DNA of 64,000 bases. Source: Paraflavitalea soli (GTDB lineage Bacteria; Bacteroidota; Bacteroidia; Chitinophagales; Chitinophagaceae). Position numbers and translations under genes: made by a program. The notes beneath the pieces were generated by a model. It saw nothing but the letters and a program-made list of their open reading frames with translations, did no database searches and was not told the DNA's origin. Shown in pieces: positions 3,671-12,471 of the stretch (the stretch's first letter is position 1; each line of letters starts with the position of its first letter). Location: contig NZ_CP032157.1 in NCBI RefSeq assembly GCF_003555545.1, positions 5,646,546-5,710,545 of the forward strand, read 5' to 3'.

Positions 3671-4681
3671 TTAAGTATAACTCTTAGCTGCGGCGTCCAA
3701 CCGCTGCCTGATCTTTGATGCCAGTATACGGGGCGCCAACACTTTCATAGACTCTCCAAACCCCAGGATCTCTCTTTCCAGTTCAAAATTCAGCACTACA
3801 TCAATGCGGATGACAATACCATTTTCATCTTCTTTAATCAGCTTTTGGGAATGGTGTATAGGCTTAGTAAGTACATAGGGGGCATTGTATTTATCAATGA
3901 ACAGCACCACCTTATTGGCCCGGTCCTTTTCAGTTTTGGTAACCCCAATAAGATCATCAAAGTATTGGTCAAAATCTACGCCTTCATGCTCAATGAACTT
4001 TTCTTTGCTTAATTCCTGGAATTCTATAATCCTGTCCAATGCCATTGTAGACAACAGGTTCCCTTTTTTACCTTTGGCAATCAGGAACCAGCGGTTGCGG
4101 TATTCTTTCAGCAAATAGGGAAAACAAATAAGCTGTTGTGATTTTGTGGCCTTAAAAGATTTGTATTCTACCAGCAAAGCCTTCTTCTGCAGGATGGCCT
4201 GGTACAGCGGATTAATATGTTCCAGTCCTTTCAGCAGCCTGTTGTTTTCAAACTGGATGCAATTGCGGCCCTGATGAGTTGTCCGGTACAGGTTGTTTTC
4301 CAACCGGGCAATCATATCGCTCATTTCTTCAAAGTATGTAAAGCCATTAAACTGCTTTAGGATACCTACAATCTCTTTCATCTTTTCTACGTCAGCCTGG
4401 TTCACCGGAGCATTGGTAATACTGTAATCCGGCTCACCGTATGTATAAAATTTCTTATCGGTAACAACAATTGGTGCATTGTAACCTAACTTATCGCTGC
4501 GCATTACCTGGATATCTGCCTGTATGGTTCTCTTGCTTACGCCTGATGTAATACCCTCTAATTGATAAAGGACATCTGCCACTTTTTCAATTAAATCTTC
4601 CAGGCACCATTTACGGTACCTGTTTCGCAGGCAGTCGTCAATGGTTTTGTAGCGGATAAGGGCTAATTTATTTATAGACAT
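3671..4681 (-). CDS. WYL-domain transcriptional regulator
   Basis: A 336-residue regulator with an N-terminal winged-helix region (residues 1-70, including GVSKRTIQADIQVMR) and a WYL ligand-binding domain around 150-230. The family triplet appears as WFL in RNRWFLIAKG, and a WCX-like C-terminal part follows. The ATG at 4681 (MSINKLALIRYKTID) is preferred over 4729 because it matches the usual family N-terminus. Characterised WYL proteins (for example DriD, PafBC) respond to nucleic acids or nucleotides. It is divergent from a tRNA-like RNA and the RING/TerD gene, and two TACGCA-N7-TGCGTA palindromes lie in the shared upstream region. That makes it the likely local regulator (inference). Confidence 0.88.
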   Translation of the reverse strand: MSINKLALIRYKTIDDCLRNRYRKWCLEDLIEKVADVLYQLEGITSGVSKRTIQADIQVMRSDKLGYNAPIVVTDKKFYTYGEPDYSITNAPVNQADVEKMKEIVGILKQFNGFTYFEEMSDMIARLENNLYRTTHQGRNCIQFENNRLLKGLEHINPLYQAILQKKALLVEYKSFKATKSQQLICFPYLLKEYRNRWFLIAKGKKGNLLSTMALDRIIEFQELSKEKFIEHEGVDFDQYFDDLIGVTKTEKDRANKVVLFIDKYNAPYVLTKPIHHSQKLIKEDENGIVIRIDVVLNFELEREILGFGESMKVLAPRILASKIRQRLDAAAKSYT

Positions 4682-4722
4682 GGCAATATTTCTAGGGGCA
4701 AAAATAATTCCTTGATTAATGC

Positions 4723-4741
4723 TACGCAATAGACTTGCGTA
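4723..4741. promoter_or_regulatory. Palindromic operator candidate, proximal to the WYL gene
   Basis: Perfect inverted repeat TACGCA-N7-TGCGTA, extended here to 8-bp arms (CTACGCAA/TTGCGTAG). It sits 41 bp upstream of the WYL start codon. The same half-sites and the same spacer length recur at 4836-4854, as expected for a dimeric regulator. Binding by the adjacent WYL protein is inference. Confidence 0.65.
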
Positions 4742-4797
4742 GTAAGTAATTTTTTCGGGGCCAAAAAGCTTATTTTTAGTGCTAATAGCCTCAGAAG

Positions 4798-4805
4798 CAA
4801 ATATA
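4798..4805 (-). promoter_or_regulatory. Possible -7 box for the WYL gene
   Basis: On the minus strand this reads TATATTTG, matching TAnnTTTG. No TTTG lies at the usual distance, so support is weak. If used, it gives a leader of roughly 110 nt containing the proximal palindrome, which would place that operator downstream of the start site. Confidence 0.35.
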
Positions 4806-4835
4806 TAAAAGCATCTCCAAATAAATATTTTCTCC

Positions 4836-4854
4836 TACGCAATTGTGCTGCGTA
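4836..4854. promoter_or_regulatory. Palindromic operator candidate, proximal to the tRNA-like RNA
   Basis: Second copy of TACGCA-N7-TGCGTA, 113 bp from the first and 96 bp before the tRNA-like RNA. The spacer sequences differ but both half-sites are identical, so selection on the half-sites is likely. It is placed to control transcription toward the RNA and the RING/TerD gene. Confidence 0.65.
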
Positions 4855-4949
4855 CCAGTGTGTGCATATTTGCTGTATCAAAAACGGGTCAAGAATTAAG
4901 TTACTTCAAAACCAAGGATGCACTTATTCAATTACCGTTTTTGTTCTTT

Positions 4950-5146
4950 GAAGCAGTAGCTCAGCTGGTAGAGCAACGTAAAGTATTAAAATTATCAGGG
5001 GTCAATTCAAACATACTTCAATTGGTAATGCCGCTTCGGCGGCAGACTGGTTCGAACCCAGGCGCTTGAAGATTATCCCGGTCAATTAAGCCTTACGTCA
5101 ATGACTGTTAATCCGTGGGTCGTTGGTTCGAATCCAACCTGCTTCA
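4950..5146 (+). ncRNA. Interrupted tRNA(Asn)-like RNA with a 124-nt insert
   Basis: Joining 4950-4978 to 5103-5146 gives a complete 73-nt cloverleaf. The 7-bp acceptor stem is GAAGCAG/CTGCTTC, positions 8-9 are TA, the D stem is GCTC/GAGC with loop AGCTGGTA, and the 5-bp anticodon stem is ACGGA/TCCGT. The anticodon loop CTGTTAA carries GTT, the variable loop is GGGTC, and the T stem GTTGG/CCAAC holds loop TTCGAAT. The insert (4979-5102) separates canonical positions 29 and 30. The discriminator is A, whereas bacterial tRNA(Asn) normally has G, so charging by AsnRS is doubtful. No CCA is encoded. ACGTAA (4976-4981) can instead pair with TTACGT (5093-5098), closing the insert as its own arm at the expense of the anticodon stem. 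The RNA ends 72 bp before the RING/TerD gene. It is too short for a group I intron and has no obvious bulge-helix-bulge. A tRNA mimic or sensor RNA is the best guess. Confidence 0.75.
5016..5071 (+). ncRNA. Nested mini tRNA-like element inside the insert
   Basis: Within the insert, CTTCAA (5016-5021) pairs with TTGAAG (5066-5071). Enclosed in order are a D-loop-like single strand with TTGGTAA, a 6-bp hairpin TGCCGC/GCGGCA capped by a cUUCGg tetraloop (5029-5044), and a T arm CTGG-TTCGAAC-CCAG (5047-5061). It therefore has acceptor-like and T-arm features but no anticodon arm. It resembles a reduced tRNA mimic in the general style of YrlA RNAs, although no Ro60/Rsr gene is present nearby. The octamer GGTCAATT occurs just before, just after and downstream of it (5000, 5080, 5156). 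Confidence 0.6.
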
Positions 5147-5218
5147 CAAAACTATGGTCAATTATTGCTTACTTCAATTTGCTGAAGCAATAAAATTACC
5201 AGGTATAAACCAAGAATC

Positions 5219-7450
5219 ATGAGCCAATTATTAAGCGTTAGCCTTCGTCAAAAAGCAGTATTTATTCCTGAAAGAGCAGCTATTAACGAGCGTGTTCAGC
5301 TTACAGAAGCAACAGGGTCACTGGTAGCAAACCTGTCCAAATTAGGTTTCGGGGTGTCAGAGCCTTTATTAAAAGCATTGAACAATAGCACTCCTTCCTT
5401 TCAGCTTACTGTACTGGATACTTTGCGTGAGGTGACGGGAGTTAATAAAAACTGGGCCCCGCTGGTAAAAGGTTGGAATGTACCTACCGGAGAAACAGTA
5501 GCAGATCATTTTATTACCTTCTTTGCTAATATCTTCAAGGTGGGCGGCACCGTGTTACCATGTGGACATACTATCCCCGCCAATACCTTCCCTTTGCACC
5601 GGTATAATGGCTGTCCTTTCTGCGGAACTCCTTTTGAGTTCGGGGCAATAGAAAACTACAAACAGGGAAGTGAACAAAAAATACTGGAATTATGGACACT
5701 ACAGGATGCAACGGCTTTTTTGAGTGACTTGCTAACTTCCAAAACAGCGTTGGATGCTACACAAATGGATAGCCTCCATAAATTGCTTGGCGAATTGCCT
5801 ATGCCTGATGTGAAGGTCGGAATAAAGGAAACATTAATGGCAGTGATAGACGTGTTCATCGACCAGAACCAGCCGGAAAAAGCGCAGGTTTTGTTTACAT
5901 CTCCCACTGATATTATGCGCTATCTATGGTACAAGCACACTGGGTTTTTGCAGATAATTGAACCAAGGACTATTATCAGTCGTAGTTCCAAAAACAGCAG
6001 GCATATTTTACCACTGTTAGATAAGAGTGCAAAGGCCTTGCTGGATACCAAAACGGTTTTAAAACTGAAATACACAAGGAAGGATTGCATGATGGTGGCT
6101 GATTGGCTGAACAATATGGACCTGGATGCAGCTAAAATGTGTGAAATGATGCACCCAAAGCGTAGCATGTGGGTTCGTTTTATCAGGGCATTAAGATTGG
6201 CAGAATATAGTAAGCGTGCAGGTTTTGAAAAGCTACGCACTTTACTTCACCTGTTTTATAAGGAAGAATACAAGGTGTGGCAGGGAGCTGTAAACCATTA
6301 CCGTCTTCGCTATTATGTCGATGAAACATTTGATTTATTGCAGCAGCGGCCCGGTCTGTTTGCCCGCTCCCTGTTTGCCAATATGTTGTGGTTTGGCAGC
6401 AAACCTACTATTGCCGCTTTTGCTGAAATAATAGACAAAGTACCTGCACGCCTGGTGTTTACGCTAAGCATGTATGCCGAAAATTATTTCGATAAAACCA
6501 ATAACCGCGTAGTAAAGCCATTGGGAGGAGTAAATAAAAACATTCCTGCCAATCCATTATTATCCCTGTATAACGATGAGCAACTGGAAGGAATGAAAGC
6601 AGCTGTGGAAAACTTATGTTTATTGTCAGTCAGGAAACGCTTCGCAGCTATCAAAAGCACTGGCAAAACCATGTATATAGACCCGATGCTCTTTAAGATA
6701 CCTGTTTCCATTGGTGACAGAAGTGACAACATACAGGATCTTCCTGCGGCATTGATGGGAACACGCTTTCAGGTAGCAGGAGACACGGTAAGGCTGTTCA
6801 TGCAATGGGGCGTGGGCCTCCCTGCTCAGCATTTGGACATGGACCTGAGCTGTCTTATTACCTACGAAGGGCGAACAGAACGTTGCTCGTTCAGTTCCCT
6901 GGTAGCCACTGGTTGTAAACATAGTGGGGATATCAGGAGCATTCCCGATCAAATTGGTACTGCCGAATACATCGAGTTGGACACTACTGTATTGAAAAAA
7001 GCAGGAGCAAAATTTGTAACCTTTACTTGCAACGCCTATAGCAACGGAAGCCTTACACCCAACCTGGTAGTTGGCTGGATGAATAGTAAGTACCCAATGA
7101 CGATTTCCGAAAGAACAGGGGTTGCTTATGATCCATCCTGTGTACAACACCAGGTCAGGATAGTCAATAGCCTTGGCAAAGGCCTGGTATTTGGCGTATT
7201 GGACGTAGCGCAGCATGAAATAATCTGGCTGGAAATGCAGTTTTCAGGGCAGCTTGCTCAAAACCTGAATACCGGAAATATAGGAGCCATCCTGAAGAAA
7301 CTGGATAGCAAATTGACTATTGGGCATTTATTGCGTATCAAAGCAGAAGCCCAGCAGCTGGAAATACTGGAAAATAGCGAGGCAGATGAAGTGTACACAA
7401 CAGCCTGGGCGCAGAATACCGCAGCCGTCACAAAGCTGCTGGTGGATTAA
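5219..7450 (+). CDS. RING-like zinc-binding and TerD-like domain protein
   Basis: A 743-residue cytosolic protein with no signal peptide or membrane helix. Residues 115-135 hold a compact treble-clef/RING-like metal site (PCGHTIP then YNGCPFCGTPF), with likely ligands Cys115, His117, Cys132 and Cys135. Residues about 150-500 are helical with no motif I recognise. Residues about 510-670 resemble a TerD domain: WGVGLPAQHLDMDLSCLI carries the acidic D-x-D-L calcium-type motif, and KHSGDIRSIP and IELDTTVL fit the fold. From memory it fits the group named MXAN_6230/SCO0854 family RING domain protein; I could not check this. It follows the interrupted tRNA-like RNA by 72 bp with no terminator between them, so RNA and mRNA may share a transcript. 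A hairpin, ATTGCTT (5164-5170) with AAGCAAT (5185-5191), lies just before the start. TerD proteins belong to stress and conflict systems; a role in RNA damage response is inference. Confidence 0.8.
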   Translation: MSQLLSVSLRQKAVFIPERAAINERVQLTEATGSLVANLSKLGFGVSEPLLKALNNSTPSFQLTVLDTLREVTGVNKNWAPLVKGWNVPTGETVADHFITFFANIFKVGGTVLPCGHTIPANTFPLHRYNGCPFCGTPFEFGAIENYKQGSEQKILELWTLQDATAFLSDLLTSKTALDATQMDSLHKLLGELPMPDVKVGIKETLMAVIDVFIDQNQPEKAQVLFTSPTDIMRYLWYKHTGFLQIIEPRTIISRSSKNSRHILPLLDKSAKALLDTKTVLKLKYTRKDCMMVADWLNNMDLDAAKMCEMMHPKRSMWVRFIRALRLAEYSKRAGFEKLRTLLHLFYKEEYKVWQGAVNHYRLRYYVDETFDLLQQRPGLFARSLFANMLWFGSKPTIAAFAEIIDKVPARLVFTLSMYAENYFDKTNNRVVKPLGGVNKNIPANPLLSLYNDEQLEGMKAAVENLCLLSVRKRFAAIKSTGKTMYIDPMLFKIPVSIGDRSDNIQDLPAALMGTRFQVAGDTVRLFMQWGVGLPAQHLDMDLSCLITYEGRTERCSFSSLVATGCKHSGDIRSIPDQIGTAEYIELDTTVLKKAGAKFVTFTCNAYSNGSLTPNLVVGWMNSKYPMTISERTGVAYDPSCVQHQVRIVNSLGKGLVFGVLDVAQHEIIWLEMQFSGQLAQNLNTGNIGAILKKLDSKLTIGHLLRIKAEAQQLEILENSEADEVYTTAWAQNTAAVTKLLVD

Positions 7451-7457
7451 CAAATAC

Positions 7458-7486
7458 AGCACCCTGAATTTTATCAGGGTGCTTTT
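7458..7486 (+). terminator. Rho-independent terminator after the RING/TerD gene
   Basis: A 10-bp perfect hairpin, AGCACCCTGA (7458-7467) and TCAGGGTGCT (7474-7483), with a 6-nt loop and a short T run. It begins 8 bp after the stop codon and lies before the S24/S26-like gene, so that gene would be expressed by read-through or separately. Confidence 0.8.
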
Positions 7487-7504
7487 CAATGTAAGTAAAA
7501 CGAA

Positions 7505-7828
7505 ATGAACAAATATTTACGGCTAAAAGATGAATTATCATTAGCCGGTACAGGAAAAATGAAGGCATTTGGCAATTCTATGTTGCCGGTATTAAAAGAC
7601 GGAAGCCTGTTGACTTTTGAAAAAGCAGATAACTATGAGATCGGGGATATTGTATTTTGCAAAGTAAAAGGCAGGTATATTGATGCCCATAAAATAATAA
7701 AAAAGGATACCACCAAGGGATTCCTGATTGCCAACAACCACGGCTTTGAAAATGGGTGGACAAAGATCATTTATGGCAAGGTTGTTCTTGCAGAATGGCA
7801 GGGAAGGGTCATTTATAAAACGGAATGA
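7505..7828 (+). CDS. S24/S26 peptidase-like protein, cytosolic
   Basis: A small protein of 107 residues with the core of the LexA/signal-peptidase fold. It has a G-N-S-M-L-P box (nucleophile Ser25), the NYEIGDIVF strand, and DAHKII, where His62 or Lys63 could be the general base. An IANNHGFENGW loop resembles the substrate-side segment of S26 enzymes. There is no membrane helix and no N-terminal HTH, so it is neither a normal signal peptidase nor a full phage repressor. It may act as a stand-alone protease or self-cleaving domain. It is same-strand with, and 54 bp after, the RING/TerD gene but beyond a terminator hairpin. Partnership with that gene is inferred from proximity. Confidence 0.7.
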   Translation: MNKYLRLKDELSLAGTGKMKAFGNSMLPVLKDGSLLTFEKADNYEIGDIVFCKVKGRYIDAHKIIKKDTTKGFLIANNHGFENGWTKIIYGKVVLAEWQGRVIYKTE

Positions 7829-9233: not shown

Positions 9234-11693
9234 ATGAGCTTAAGAGAATTAAAGCAAGCGCTTGTTTTGGTATTGTTCACCGTTTGCCCGGGATTATTGA
9301 TTGCTCAGTTTGATGAGCAATTGATGCGTGACATTCGCAATACAGGTTACATACACAGTCCCTTGCCACTGGATTACAGCAAGTCTTTTGAATCATTTGG
9401 ATTAACCAAAAAAGTATTGGCTTCGGATATGTTGTGCGACATGGAAACACTGGATAAATGGTCGCACAAAGGATTTGGAGGTATGTACCTTACAAATGAA
9501 AGAAGCAAATCAGGTAAAAACAGTTTGCGGCTGGTTGGACAAACTACCAATCCGACATTTCTGGACTGGGGTATCGGGCTCGGTACTTCCATGGCCAGTT
9601 ATGATGTAGGCGGCGTCAATTGGGAAAAATACAATCGCATTCATTTCTACATCTATCCGCATTGCGAAGGCGCCCGCAGCATCTACCTCAATTTATACCT
9701 TGAAAATGATGGTAAGATAAAGGTCCCGGATAAATACGAACGGGAAGGCATTCATGAAATTAACCTGATCAACGGTCAATGGAATGAATGTTTTGTTGAG
9801 ATGCCGGAGCTGCCGCGTGATAAAATAACCAAATTGTCCTTTGCTATAGAAATATTCGGCAAAGAACGCACCATGGGCGATTCGTTGAAATTTGATATTG
9901 ATGCGGTGTCACTGCAAACCATCGAAAACCCTGAAATAGCCAGTGGCTGGGTACCGGCATCCAACCGCATTATACATTCCACCACCGGCTATGGTGTTGA
10001 AAGTGAAAAGACAGCCATTGTGCAGGTGAAAAATAACAAGGGAAAGTTTCAACTGATCGATAAAAGCAGCAATAAGGTGGTGTATGAAGGAAAGATCAAC
10101 ACAAAAAAAACAGCCATCGGGAATTTTGAGACCATTGATTTCAGTGCGTTCAAAAAAGAGGGGCAGTATTTTATTCGCGCCGGCGATGTTGCCAGCAAGC
10201 CCTTTTACATCAACAAAAATATTTGGGATAATTCTGCGTGGCGTATGCTGAATTATATATTTAATGAACGTTGCGGTTATCCTATTCCCGGTAAGCACGG
10301 GGCCTGCCACACTGATCTCAATGCTACTTTTGAAGGAAAACTTTTCCCTTTCAATGGAGGCTGGCACGATGCTGCCGACATGTCGCAGCAGGTCTTGCAA
10401 TCCGGCGAAATTATTTATGGCCTGCTGGAGGAGGCCAACCGGGCTAAGAAGAAAGGCAATAGCCCCTTATTTATTAGGTTACAGGAGGAAGCAGAATGGG
10501 GTATTGACTGTATATTGAAAGCGAGACTGGGTAATGGCTACCGTGCACAAACCTGGGGTACCAATCTATGGACGGATGGATTTATCGGTACAAAGGATGA
10601 TTCTTCAAGGCGCAGGCAGGTACGTATTCACAACCGTGCTTTTGAGAACTTTATGTTTGCCGGTATAGAGGCCTATGCCTCCATGAGTCTGGAGAATGAC
10701 CCCATGCTGAAAGAATTCCTGCGCAAGGCAGCCATTGAGGATTATGCTTTTGCCCGTAAGCGTTTTGATAGCCTGGGCTTTAATGACCTGAGCAGCATTG
10801 GCGGCGGGGGTGATCATGCAGCCATGGCTTCCAATAGCCAGTATTCGGCCAACATTTCCTTTGCGGCCAGCTTATTGTACAAATTAACCAGGGATAAGTC
10901 ATATGCAGCGGAAGCGGCAAAAGCCATTCAGTACACATTACAATGTCAGCGTACTGAACCACTGAATGACAAAAACAAACTACGTGGCTTTTTTTATCGC
11001 GACCTGAATAAAAGATCCATTGTTCATTATACCCATCAGTCACGCGACCATTCCTATATGCAGGCATTAACAGCCCTTTGCGAAACCCAACCGGATAACC
11101 CGGATTACAAAAAATGGGAAGCCGCTATCAGGATGTATGGTGATTATCTTAAAACCATTATGCAGTATGTGCAGCCGTACGGTTTGGTGCCCAGCGGCGT
11201 TTATCATGTGGATGAGGTAAAGGACTCGGTCAATTTTTATAAAGTGCAGGTAGGCATTTACAAAGGCGCTGCCAGTGATTATAAAGAACAGTTGGAGCAT
11301 GGCTTTAAACTGGATGAGGAGCATTACCTGCGTGTTTTTCCCGTATGGTTCTCTTTTAAAGGAAACGCAGCGGTACAACTGTCCACCGGCAAGGCGGCGG
11401 CCCTTGCAGGAAGGTTTTTGCACGACAAAAAGCTGATGGATATTGCAGAACAGCAATTATTCTGGATAGTGGGTAAAAATCCTTTCGGACAATCTATCAT
11501 TTGGGGGGAAGGAAGCAACTATCCTCAATTGTATACGGCATTGCCCGGTGAAACCGTGGGTGGCATCCCTGTAGGTATGCAATCAAGATTTAATGAAGAC
11601 ACCCCCTACTGGCCGCAGTTTAATACCGCCACCTATAAAGAATTGTGGGTAGGGCCGGCAGCCAAATGGTTTTCGCTGATTGCTGAGTTCTGA
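9234..11693 (+). CDS. Glycoside hydrolase family 9 enzyme, exported
   Basis: An 819-residue exported beta-glycanase. A signal peptide (LVLVLFTVCPGLLIAQ) is followed by a carbohydrate-binding-like beta domain (residues 30-235), an Ig-like CelD_N domain (240-325) and the GH9 (alpha/alpha)6 catalytic domain (330-815). The GH9 box GGWHDAADMSQ carries both Asp residues that activate water. The C-terminal ATYKELWVGPAAKW contains the likely general-acid Glu. A late NPFGQSIIWG segment is also typical. Substrates in the family include cellulose, mixed glucans and chito-oligosaccharides, so specificity is open. It stands alone, with no SusC/SusD pair in the window, and is convergent with the beta-lactamase gene. 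Confidence 0.9.
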   Translation: MSLRELKQALVLVLFTVCPGLLIAQFDEQLMRDIRNTGYIHSPLPLDYSKSFESFGLTKKVLASDMLCDMETLDKWSHKGFGGMYLTNERSKSGKNSLRLVGQTTNPTFLDWGIGLGTSMASYDVGGVNWEKYNRIHFYIYPHCEGARSIYLNLYLENDGKIKVPDKYEREGIHEINLINGQWNECFVEMPELPRDKITKLSFAIEIFGKERTMGDSLKFDIDAVSLQTIENPEIASGWVPASNRIIHSTTGYGVESEKTAIVQVKNNKGKFQLIDKSSNKVVYEGKINTKKTAIGNFETIDFSAFKKEGQYFIRAGDVASKPFYINKNIWDNSAWRMLNYIFNERCGYPIPGKHGACHTDLNATFEGKLFPFNGGWHDAADMSQQVLQSGEIIYGLLEEANRAKKKGNSPLFIRLQEEAEWGIDCILKARLGNGYRAQTWGTNLWTDGFIGTKDDSSRRRQVRIHNRAFENFMFAGIEAYASMSLENDPMLKEFLRKAAIEDYAFARKRFDSLGFNDLSSIGGGGDHAAMASNSQYSANISFAASLLYKLTRDKSYAAEAAKAIQYTLQCQRTEPLNDKNKLRGFFYRDLNKRSIVHYTHQSRDHSYMQALTALCETQPDNPDYKKWEAAIRMYGDYLKTIMQYVQPYGLVPSGVYHVDEVKDSVNFYKVQVGIYKGAASDYKEQLEHGFKLDEEHYLRVFPVWFSFKGNAAVQLSTGKAAALAGRFLHDKKLMDIAEQQLFWIVGKNPFGQSIIWGEGSNYPQLYTALPGETVGGIPVGMQSRFNEDTPYWPQFNTATYKELWVGPAAKWFSLIAEF

Positions 11694-11712: not shown

Positions 11713-12471
11713 TTATTGAGCCTTGAATAAGTTAATGGTATACTCAAGTAATTTGTTGTCTCCATATGCACCATGTCCCGGAACAACGATTTTCACATTG
11801 GGGTATTCCTTTTTCACTTTTTCAACGGTGCCTGACCAATCGGCCACATTAGCATCGCCTAAATAGCCTTTGCTGGCACCTGATTCTTTTATTAAACAAC
11901 CGCCAAATAGGATGTTTTCACCCGGGAAATAACCGACTACATTATCTTTTGTATGACCTTCTCCGAAAAACTTTGCAATAATATGTTCATTGCCCACTTT
12001 TAAAATGAGTGAGTCTTTGAAACTGTTTTGGGGAACAACAAAATTCTTCTCTTTTGCAAATTCAATCGTTCTGAAATAAGCATAAGAAGGGATATTGTTG
12101 TTATGGAATGCTTTTAGTCCACCCAGGCAATCGTCGTGGAAATGGGTTGGAATAATGGCGTTTATCTTACAATGTAGCTTTTCTTTGATCCATTTGATTA
12201 ACGCTGCAGCACTGGTATCGTTGGTTGGTGTATCAAAAACAATTACTTCCTTACTATTTCTGACGATGAGGCCGTTACAGGGAACGTTGCCAAAATCATT
12301 GGTTTGTAAGAATGAGGTATGTTGAAAAGAGTTTTCGGTAATTTGGGTTACAATCAACGCTTTGGATTTGTAAACCACTTTGGGCTTGAATATCTGTCTT
12401 TTTTGAGCACTACCATGTAAACAGGTAAGAGAGACTACAATGATCAACAGCGTTTTTATAATGGTTTTCAT
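11713..12471 (-). CDS. Subclass B1 metallo-beta-lactamase
   Basis: A 252-residue exported enzyme of the metallo-beta-lactamase fold with a signal peptide (LLIIVVSLTCLHGSAQ). All B1 zinc ligands are visible: HFHDDCLGG gives His116, His118 and Asp120 (BBL numbering), GEGHTKDN gives His196, FGGCLIKES gives Cys221 with the substrate-binding Lys224 three residues on, and VPGHGAYG gives His263. The Zn2 Cys ligand separates B1 from B2/B3 and from glyoxalase-type members. Chromosomal B1 enzymes are common in environmental Bacteroidota. No regulator or mobile element adjoins it, so it looks intrinsic. Actual hydrolysis of beta-lactams is not shown by sequence alone. Confidence 0.87.
   Translation of the reverse strand: MKTIIKTLLIIVVSLTCLHGSAQKRQIFKPKVVYKSKALIVTQITENSFQHTSFLQTNDFGNVPCNGLIVRNSKEVIVFDTPTNDTSAAALIKWIKEKLHCKINAIIPTHFHDDCLGGLKAFHNNNIPSYAYFRTIEFAKEKNFVVPQNSFKDSLILKVGNEHIIAKFFGEGHTKDNVVGYFPGENILFGGCLIKESGASKGYLGDANVADWSGTVEKVKKEYPNVKIVVPGHGAYGDNKLLEYTINLFKAQ

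Follow-up and report, generated by a model that had tools for sequence, protein, structure and literature searches.

The DNA window analysed here, a stretch of 64,000 nucleotides from the genome of Paraflavitalea soli, carries a WYL-type regulator gene and, divergent from it, a gene coding for a 743-amino acid protein, hereafter the RING/TerD protein. The stretch between the two genes is without convincing genes, and its positions 4883-5202 form an array in which one RNA module is repeated. The features of the locus are given below, where R1 denotes a covariance model built from 45 hairpins, none of them taken from the 64-kb window, and where the E-values refer to that window.

3671-4684 (- strand): WYL/WCX transcription regulator gene, divergent from the RNA array (Pfam WYL 38.2 bits, WCX 42.1 bits, both over cut-off)
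4723-4741 (both strands): operator-like palindrome 1, on the side of the wyl gene, TACGCAAn6TGCGTA with 0 mismatches
4836-4854 (no strand assigned): operator-like palindrome 2, on the side of the RNA array, with the half-sites of palindrome 1
4865-4872 (+ strand): promoter element CATATTTG, about 10 nt 5' of unit 1, which we take to be -7-like from the Bacteroidota promoter consensus
4883-4938 (+ strand): Y-like RNA unit 1, a hairpin module (R1 40.6 bits, E 2.9e-8)
4950-5146 (+ strand): tRNA-like unit with the permuted module as insert (read from the sequence, with strict search and strand control)
4996-5079 (+ strand): Y-like unit nested in the tRNA-like insert (R1 24.9 bits, E 3.6e-4)
5152-5202 (+ strand): Y-like RNA unit directly before the RING/TerD gene (R1 50.6 bits, E 7.4e-11)
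5219-7450 (+ strand): gene for the 743-amino acid RING-finger, helical-repeat and TerD-like protein (NF041916, AlphaFold2, Foldseek)
7505-7828 (+ strand): S24/S26-like peptidase gene (Pfam Peptidase_S24)

The locus was compared with homologous ones. These number 79, namely 78 fetched loci and the P. soli window, whose own copy is L001; two of the 80 fetched homologues, L077 and L081, had no upstream DNA and were left out, and Flavobacterium loci are over-represented among the 79. Neighbouring genes were counted as BLAST clusters with representatives named by Pfam. A WYL homologue occurs in 38 of the 79 loci, each time upstream and on the minus strand, and in P. soli the WYL regulator proposed by an initial annotation of this DNA was borne out by both of its Pfam domains. 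The same annotation had described two identical palindromes; both sites are present and have common half-sites, but their spacers differ, which makes them near-identical only. A search of the window returned four matches (the two sites on both strands), where 0.07 would be expected by chance on average, and at 0 mismatches TACGCAAn6TGCGTA is found genome-wide solely at these two positions. The pattern TRCGCAn7TGCGYA has four matches in the P. soli genome and none with a reversed-pattern control: two at this locus, one before the RlaP gene, about 100-200 nt 5' of it (L144 1501-2479, G000:C1:6207485), and one (G000:1237633) which sits in coding DNA and was taken as chance. Among the homologous loci, 44 of 76 have a loose form of this palindrome no more than about 160 nt 5' of their first module, against a background of 171 matches in 1.01 Mb, all of it locus sequence. 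The P. soli regulator resembles the WYL-domain regulators of defence and RNA systems in its WYL and WCX domains, its divergent gene and its palindromic sites, here candidate operators; it differs from them in apparently belonging to an RNA-repair-type locus and not to a CRISPR locus.

The repeated module, which the initial annotation had missed in all three of its copies (4883-4938, 4996-5079 and 5152-5202), was first recognised by reading the DNA upstream of homologous genes. It consists of a helix P1, an internal loop and an 8-bp covarying helix P2 followed by UUACUUC. Strand A (aGGUCAA-N7-UUACUUC) and strand B (N7'-nAUUAyCu) pair to give P1 (AGGU/ACCU), the small internal loop and the 8 bp of P2, and the module takes two forms, either a free hairpin or a circularly permuted version built into the anticodon arm of a tRNA-like structure, as at 4950-5146. 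The module was found at all 79 loci, at 77 by pattern and at L072 and L076 by R1 (E 0.0047 and 2.4e-9, respectively), with one to seven units per locus. The pattern search gave 242 copies in 77 of the 79 loci, 175 hairpins and 67 circularly permuted ones, with 112 different P2 sequences; no more than one P2 pair could be missing in these copies, and among the permuted assignments with loops longer than 30 nt some may take the wrong strand B. As this search demanded pairing, a test without such selection was run. A B motif lay 32-90 nt 3' of 146 of the 244 exact A strands (98 had none in range), and 134 of these 146 strand pairs make 7 or 8 of the 8 P2 pairs, compared with about 15% for shuffled partners. 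Covariation counts from alignment A3, for which 45 of 50 candidate hairpins were taken, are biased upward, since all of its hairpins were picked for perfect P2 pairing.

Over the 8.44 Mb of the P. soli genome R1 gave three matches, all at this array (E up to 10; 150 of 2765 first-look candidates scored). The nested unit, which bears a UUCG-type hairpin and a T-arm mimic (5047-5061), has an E-value of 0.047 at this scale. Almost every A-strand copy of the Bacteroidota loci is located 5' of the gene and on its strand, a count for which L003-L005 were taken in gene-reversed orientation; an array seemingly downstream of the gene in L003-L005 was discarded, these three loci being stored gene-reversed. 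In L080 units are also present downstream of the RING/TerD gene.

The interrupted tRNA-like RNA of the initial annotation holds up at 4950-5146 and recurs: a strict search returned 72 such elements in 59 of the 79 loci and none in the other 20, which include a same-genus genome (G003, locus L002). In P. soli the acceptor stem (4950-4956/5139-5145) is paired at 7 of 7 positions, the D arm spans 4959-4974 and the T arm 5122-5138, and the split anticodon arm (4976-4978/5103-5116) was aligned by hand, with ACG|GA pairing to TCCGT. The insert is the permuted module, with strand B at 4982-4996 and strand A at 5080-5099, and its P2/P1 hairpin extends the anticodon arm; by hand count 6 of the 8 P2 positions are paired in this copy. 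Once the insert is removed, a complete, Asn GUU-like anticodon arm is left, and an intact tRNA-Asn(GTT) is present elsewhere in the genome. Neither ARAGORN nor Rfam reported the element at 4950-5146, probably because 147 nt separate its D arm from its T arm; the Rfam tRNA model reports homologues with shorter inserts in six of eight Bacteroidota loci scanned (L010, L012, L016, L047, L060 and L075), and no element in L022 or L053. Folded alone, 4950-5160 is mildly more stable than its shuffles (z -1.96; 9 of 200 shuffles equalled or exceeded its stability) and its minimum-energy fold differs from the full cloverleaf, so the case is built on comparison.

This comparison gave a clear result. Under a rule slightly different from that of the 72-element search, 76 tRNA-like elements were counted in the 115,802 nt that precede the 79 genes; the opposite strand of the same DNA had none, nor did other flanking strands totalling 1,434,556 nt. 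Their recurrence upstream of these genes is not chance. Positions 27-43 and 28-42, on which the elements were not selected, pair in 69 and 67 of the 72 elements (shuffle means 34 and 36), and pairing of 29-41, in 34 of 72, is at chance level (shuffle mean 32), from which it follows that the insert usually starts after position 28. At the assumed position of the anticodon loop, read with a variable loop of 5 nt, CTTTTAA or CTTCTAA is found in 31 of the 72 elements; the other 41 are diverse and most of them are without any CT/TTnnnAA loop there. Many of the Flavobacterium elements (L015-L046, L051, L063, L079) retain CTTTTAA or CTTCTAA, with Lys UUU or Arg UCU at the anticodon position, and others do not.

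The large protein is a distant member of the MXAN_6230/SCO0854 superfamily and not a Ro60 protein. Its alignment to the family model NF041916 is nearly full-length (E 1.5e-34), with a score of 119.3 bits under a curated cut-off of 600. The AlphaFold2 model (pLDDT 85.2) comprises an N-terminal part with a RING-type finger, a helical repeat and a TerD-like beta domain. The finger is weak in the P. soli protein itself (21.5 bits, cut-off 27), and Prok-RING_4 is matched at E<=0.01 by 52 of the 53 members of alignment A1, which holds 52 homologues and the P. soli protein and leaves out 28 of the 80 homologues, mostly from Flavobacterium; residues C115, C132 and C135 of the finger, in the N-terminal part, are invariant. 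The top Foldseek match for the full model is 2qng (probability 1.0, E 0.005), a structure which we take to be TerD-like. Thus, of the RING/TerD protein announced by the initial annotation, the finger stands on its relatives and the TerD-like end is a prediction from the Foldseek match to 2qng and from relatives annotated TerD; Pfam TerD itself has no match in the protein. The helical part modelled alone reached a pLDDT of 91.6, and its comparison with the PDB by fold gave nothing informative among the 50 matches listed of 665.

A disguised Ro60 was also considered for this protein and was rejected: hhalign against 17 TROVE proteins gave a probability of 0.1, Pfam TROVE has no match, and Ro60 is absent from the 50 matches listed of 1354 obtained by Foldseek from the PDB at E<=10 with the full model, as it is from the 50 listed of 665 for the helical domain. 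A search of PDB sequences returned three weak matches, all unrelated, and in a viral fold library a phage TROVE protein was weakly matched at rank 12 (E 0.011, TM about 0.2-0.3). Among the papers listed in a literature search none contains the names MXAN_6230 or SCO0854, so that no description of an RNA partner of this family came to light there. As for the S24/S26-like protein that the initial annotation counted as part of the module, the gene exists at 7505-7828 but lies near the RING/TerD gene in 3 of the 79 loci (L003-L005 taken in gene-reversed orientation); it was therefore rejected as a part of the system and is probably just a neighbour. Further along, the window has a GH9 glycosyl hydrolase with a CelD N-terminal Ig-like domain at 9234-11693 and, on the minus strand at 11713-12471, an ORF whose HFHDD motif by eye resembles that of a hydrolase of the metallo-beta-lactamase fold.

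The distribution of the RING/TerD gene is patchy, with 5 of 99 near relatives carrying one. In the phylum, the family was matched at E<=0.001 in 13 of 296 genomes, by full-length genes in eight and by the TerD-like part alone in five. R1 marks all eight genomes with full-length genes, each with matches adjoining the gene, and the module is thus linked to the family in every gene-bearing genome tested. Two of the 288 other genomes are also marked (G302 and G356); they were set aside as gene-free carriers, the orthologous matches lying inside a coding ORF. For the initial annotation, homologues consistently lacking both the RNA and the WYL gene would have refuted its reading. The reading withstood this check in part, with the module at all 79 loci, the strict tRNA-like element at 59 and the WYL gene at 38.

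RtcB is encoded nearby in 25 of the 79 loci and RlaP, a nucleotidyltransferase described in PMC6514570 as belonging to several counter-RNase repair systems, in 10. At least one of WYL, RtcB and RlaP is found in 44 loci and none of the three in 35, for 15 of which the sequence is under 13 kb. In P. soli, RtcB and RlaP are encoded elsewhere in the genome and not beside the 743-amino acid gene. Beside the Variovorax relative, rtcR belongs to a divergent gene cluster and lies three small genes away, and in phage Weasels2 RtcB lies about 3 kb from the RING/TerD copy. The family is thus linked to RNA-repair genes in part of the genomes, and the genomic context favours a putative RNA-repair role for the locus.

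The Y RNAs known in bacteria come from Ro60 systems. Of the 296 genomes of the phylum, 23 contain Ro60 (TROVE) genes, and none was found in the P. soli genome. At 14 of 20 TROVE loci the gene is followed downstream by arrays of P2-UACUUCG units, many of which include T-arms and pieces of tRNA, in the same P2-UACUUC-T-arm design as at the RING/TerD loci. L129 and L130 have the motifs upstream of the gene, and L112, L119, L127 and L128 have none by this motif, although L112 nonetheless matches the Rfam YrlA model (RF02553). That model matches 12 of 13 TROVE loci scanned, all below the gathering score (E 2e-5 to 0.47), and because it sees the Bacteroidota Ro60 arrays of L111-L126 at this level only, they are probably under-annotated. 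It has no match at the RING/TerD loci scanned, and Rfam with a permissive threshold gave nothing meaningful on the P. soli array. Of the 20 Ro60 genes, 13 have a loose form of the P. soli palindrome about 30-80 nt ahead of their start. In another region of the P. soli genome (L148 3400-7460, G000:C1 about 6576900-6580960), ten tRNA genes directly upstream of genes for an AAA ATPase and RtcB are partly interleaved with Ro60-type Y-like units, GTGTCGTAgac-N-TTACTTCG.

The YrlA alignment runs in the order P1, P2, anticodon-like stem, T arm, closed acceptor stem, D arm, stem, P2' and P1', and the RING-locus tRNA-like element in the order acceptor, D arm, stem, P2', P1', loop, P1, P2, stem, T arm and acceptor; read from sequence, the two orders are circular permutations of one another. 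A scan of the Ro60 arrays with R1 gave no match, and the relation to Y RNAs is therefore one of architecture, homology being unproven. The module has the two helices split by an internal loop that characterise the basal stem of Y RNAs, and its tRNA-like form adds a domain with acceptor, D and T arms at the 59 loci (72 elements); the TROVE-domain protein of a Ro60/Y RNA RNP is absent from the P. soli locus. As described in PMC8394870 and PMC7790460, Ro60/Rsr-YrlA systems likewise have a basal stem with internal loop and a tRNA-like domain with D, T and acceptor arms, and the rsr-yrlBA-rtcBA operon likewise sets several RNAs beside one protein gene with linkage to RtcB. The RING/TerD loci differ from them by the lack of a TROVE protein, by a P1/internal-loop consensus of GGUCAA/AUUACC, by a tRNA-like element in natural order with open acceptor ends and by WYL in place of RtcR. 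In the Salmonella RNA-repair operon, damaged tRNAs are the switch, according to PMC7790460.

Relatives of the protein extend beyond the phylum, and all five distant ones examined (Streptomyces, Variovorax, Vibrio and phages Weasels2 and RcXuper) match NF041916. Under a strict rule, which asks for perfect P1 and P2 together with UUACUUC, AUACUUC, CUACUUC or UUCCUUC, ten units were found at six of nine distant-gene loci (L105, L107, L110, L166, L167 and L168) and none at L104, L109 and L165; the reverse strands of all nine gave one unit. The motif list was compiled after reading L104-L110, and among the previously unread loci L165-L168 three of four have units under the rule. Units in L104, L105, L109 and L110 had been chosen by eye, and the strict rule recovers neither those of L104 nor those of L109. 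With R1, Weasels2 was matched at E 1.3e-4 and 4.6e-3, Vibrio at E 0.21 and phage LpeD weakly at E 0.021, with no match at seven other distant loci tested alongside LpeD. The third Weasels2 unit contains a YrlA-like permuted tRNA (E 0.0018), and both in this Rhodococcus phage and in the Vibrio relative units lie downstream of the gene. Three scans of viral contigs returned no relative besides Weasels2 itself. RING-TerD homologues are present in many phages (Weasels2, RcXuper, RpAliso, XacN1, SCTP-2, LpeD and Campylobacter phages), several of these genes sit amid tRNA genes, and the next annotated gene after the LpeD homologue codes for a PemK mRNA interferase.

Several explanations can be weighed for the array. 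It could be a 5' UTR regulator, T-box- or riboswitch-like, that senses the state of tRNA in cis without any trans-acting RNP; the last P. soli unit stops 16 nt before the start codon, and the position of nearly all Bacteroidota A-strand copies, upstream and on the strand of the gene, is in keeping with such a leader. We nevertheless regard it as unlikely in view of the units found downstream of the gene in L080, Weasels2 and the Vibrio relative, of the related arrays downstream of the gene in 14 of 20 Ro60 loci and of a unit number that ranges from 1 to 7. The insert could instead be an intron whose splicing, with RtcB for instance, would give a working tRNA that serves as a gauge of repair. 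Against this stand the 20 loci without a tRNA-like element, the 41 of 72 elements lacking the CTTTTAA and CTTCTAA loops, so that no conserved anticodon loop is seen, the intact tRNA-Asn(GTT) of P. soli and the fact that the insert is a module which also stands alone elsewhere in the array; they make the idea quite improbable, even with the Asn GUU-like arm restored on removal of the insert, the 31 elements that have one of the two loops and RtcB near 25 of 79 loci.

That a dispersed repeat or a tRNA-derived mobile element sits here by accident is suggested by the multicopy array and its tRNA-like parts. It is hardly credible for a module which covaries, for which R1 finds no other site in the genome (150 of 2765 first-look candidates scored) and which stays with the protein across the phylum and, judged by its architecture, in other phyla and phages as well.

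The reading we prefer, and consider probable, is that the locus is a Y-RNA-like RNP system in which the RING/helical/TerD-like protein would take the place of Ro60, within an RNA-repair regulon under WYL control, protein binding and expression of the array being predicted. The initial annotation had proposed bait, sensor or guide for the RNA, in a suggested response to tRNA damage or an anticodon nuclease; a Y-RNA-like role suits the RNA better than that of a guide. In this Y-RNA-like system, the WYL protein would respond to an RNA-damage signal, bind the palindromes and control its own gene, the array with the RING/TerD gene, and the distant RlaP gene. The array may be transcribed and then processed to individual RNAs, with tRNA-maturing enzymes cutting out the tRNA-like one. 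The stem formed by P1, the bulge, P2 and UUACUUC would be the docking site of the RING/TerD protein, by analogy with Rsr, which docks on the YrlA basal stem, and the tRNA-like domain could recruit, or compete for, enzymes acting on damaged tRNA. The complex may thereby sort damaged RNA or present it to RtcB or RlaP.

On a wider scale, it seems rather likely that the RING-TerD superfamily constitutes a second, Ro60-independent class of Y-RNA partners, with its own arrays, across several phyla and phages. The Bacteroidota form would be a circularly permuted YrlA re-opened to the natural tRNA order, and since a WYL-type operator is common to both, the Ro60 arrays and the RING-TerD array would belong to one RNA-damage regulon. 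Among the matches listed in a search of literature titles and abstract openings, no link of RING-TerD proteins to Y-like RNAs was found, and an earlier mention is possible. If our reading is true, an unrelated protein family that has Y-like arrays and a circularly permuted tRNA mimic and is linked to RtcB, RlaP and rtcR would make it possible to separate the role of the RNA from that of Ro60, RING-TerD proteins would gain an RNA partner, and the question of tRNA damage would become testable in harmless soil bacteria.
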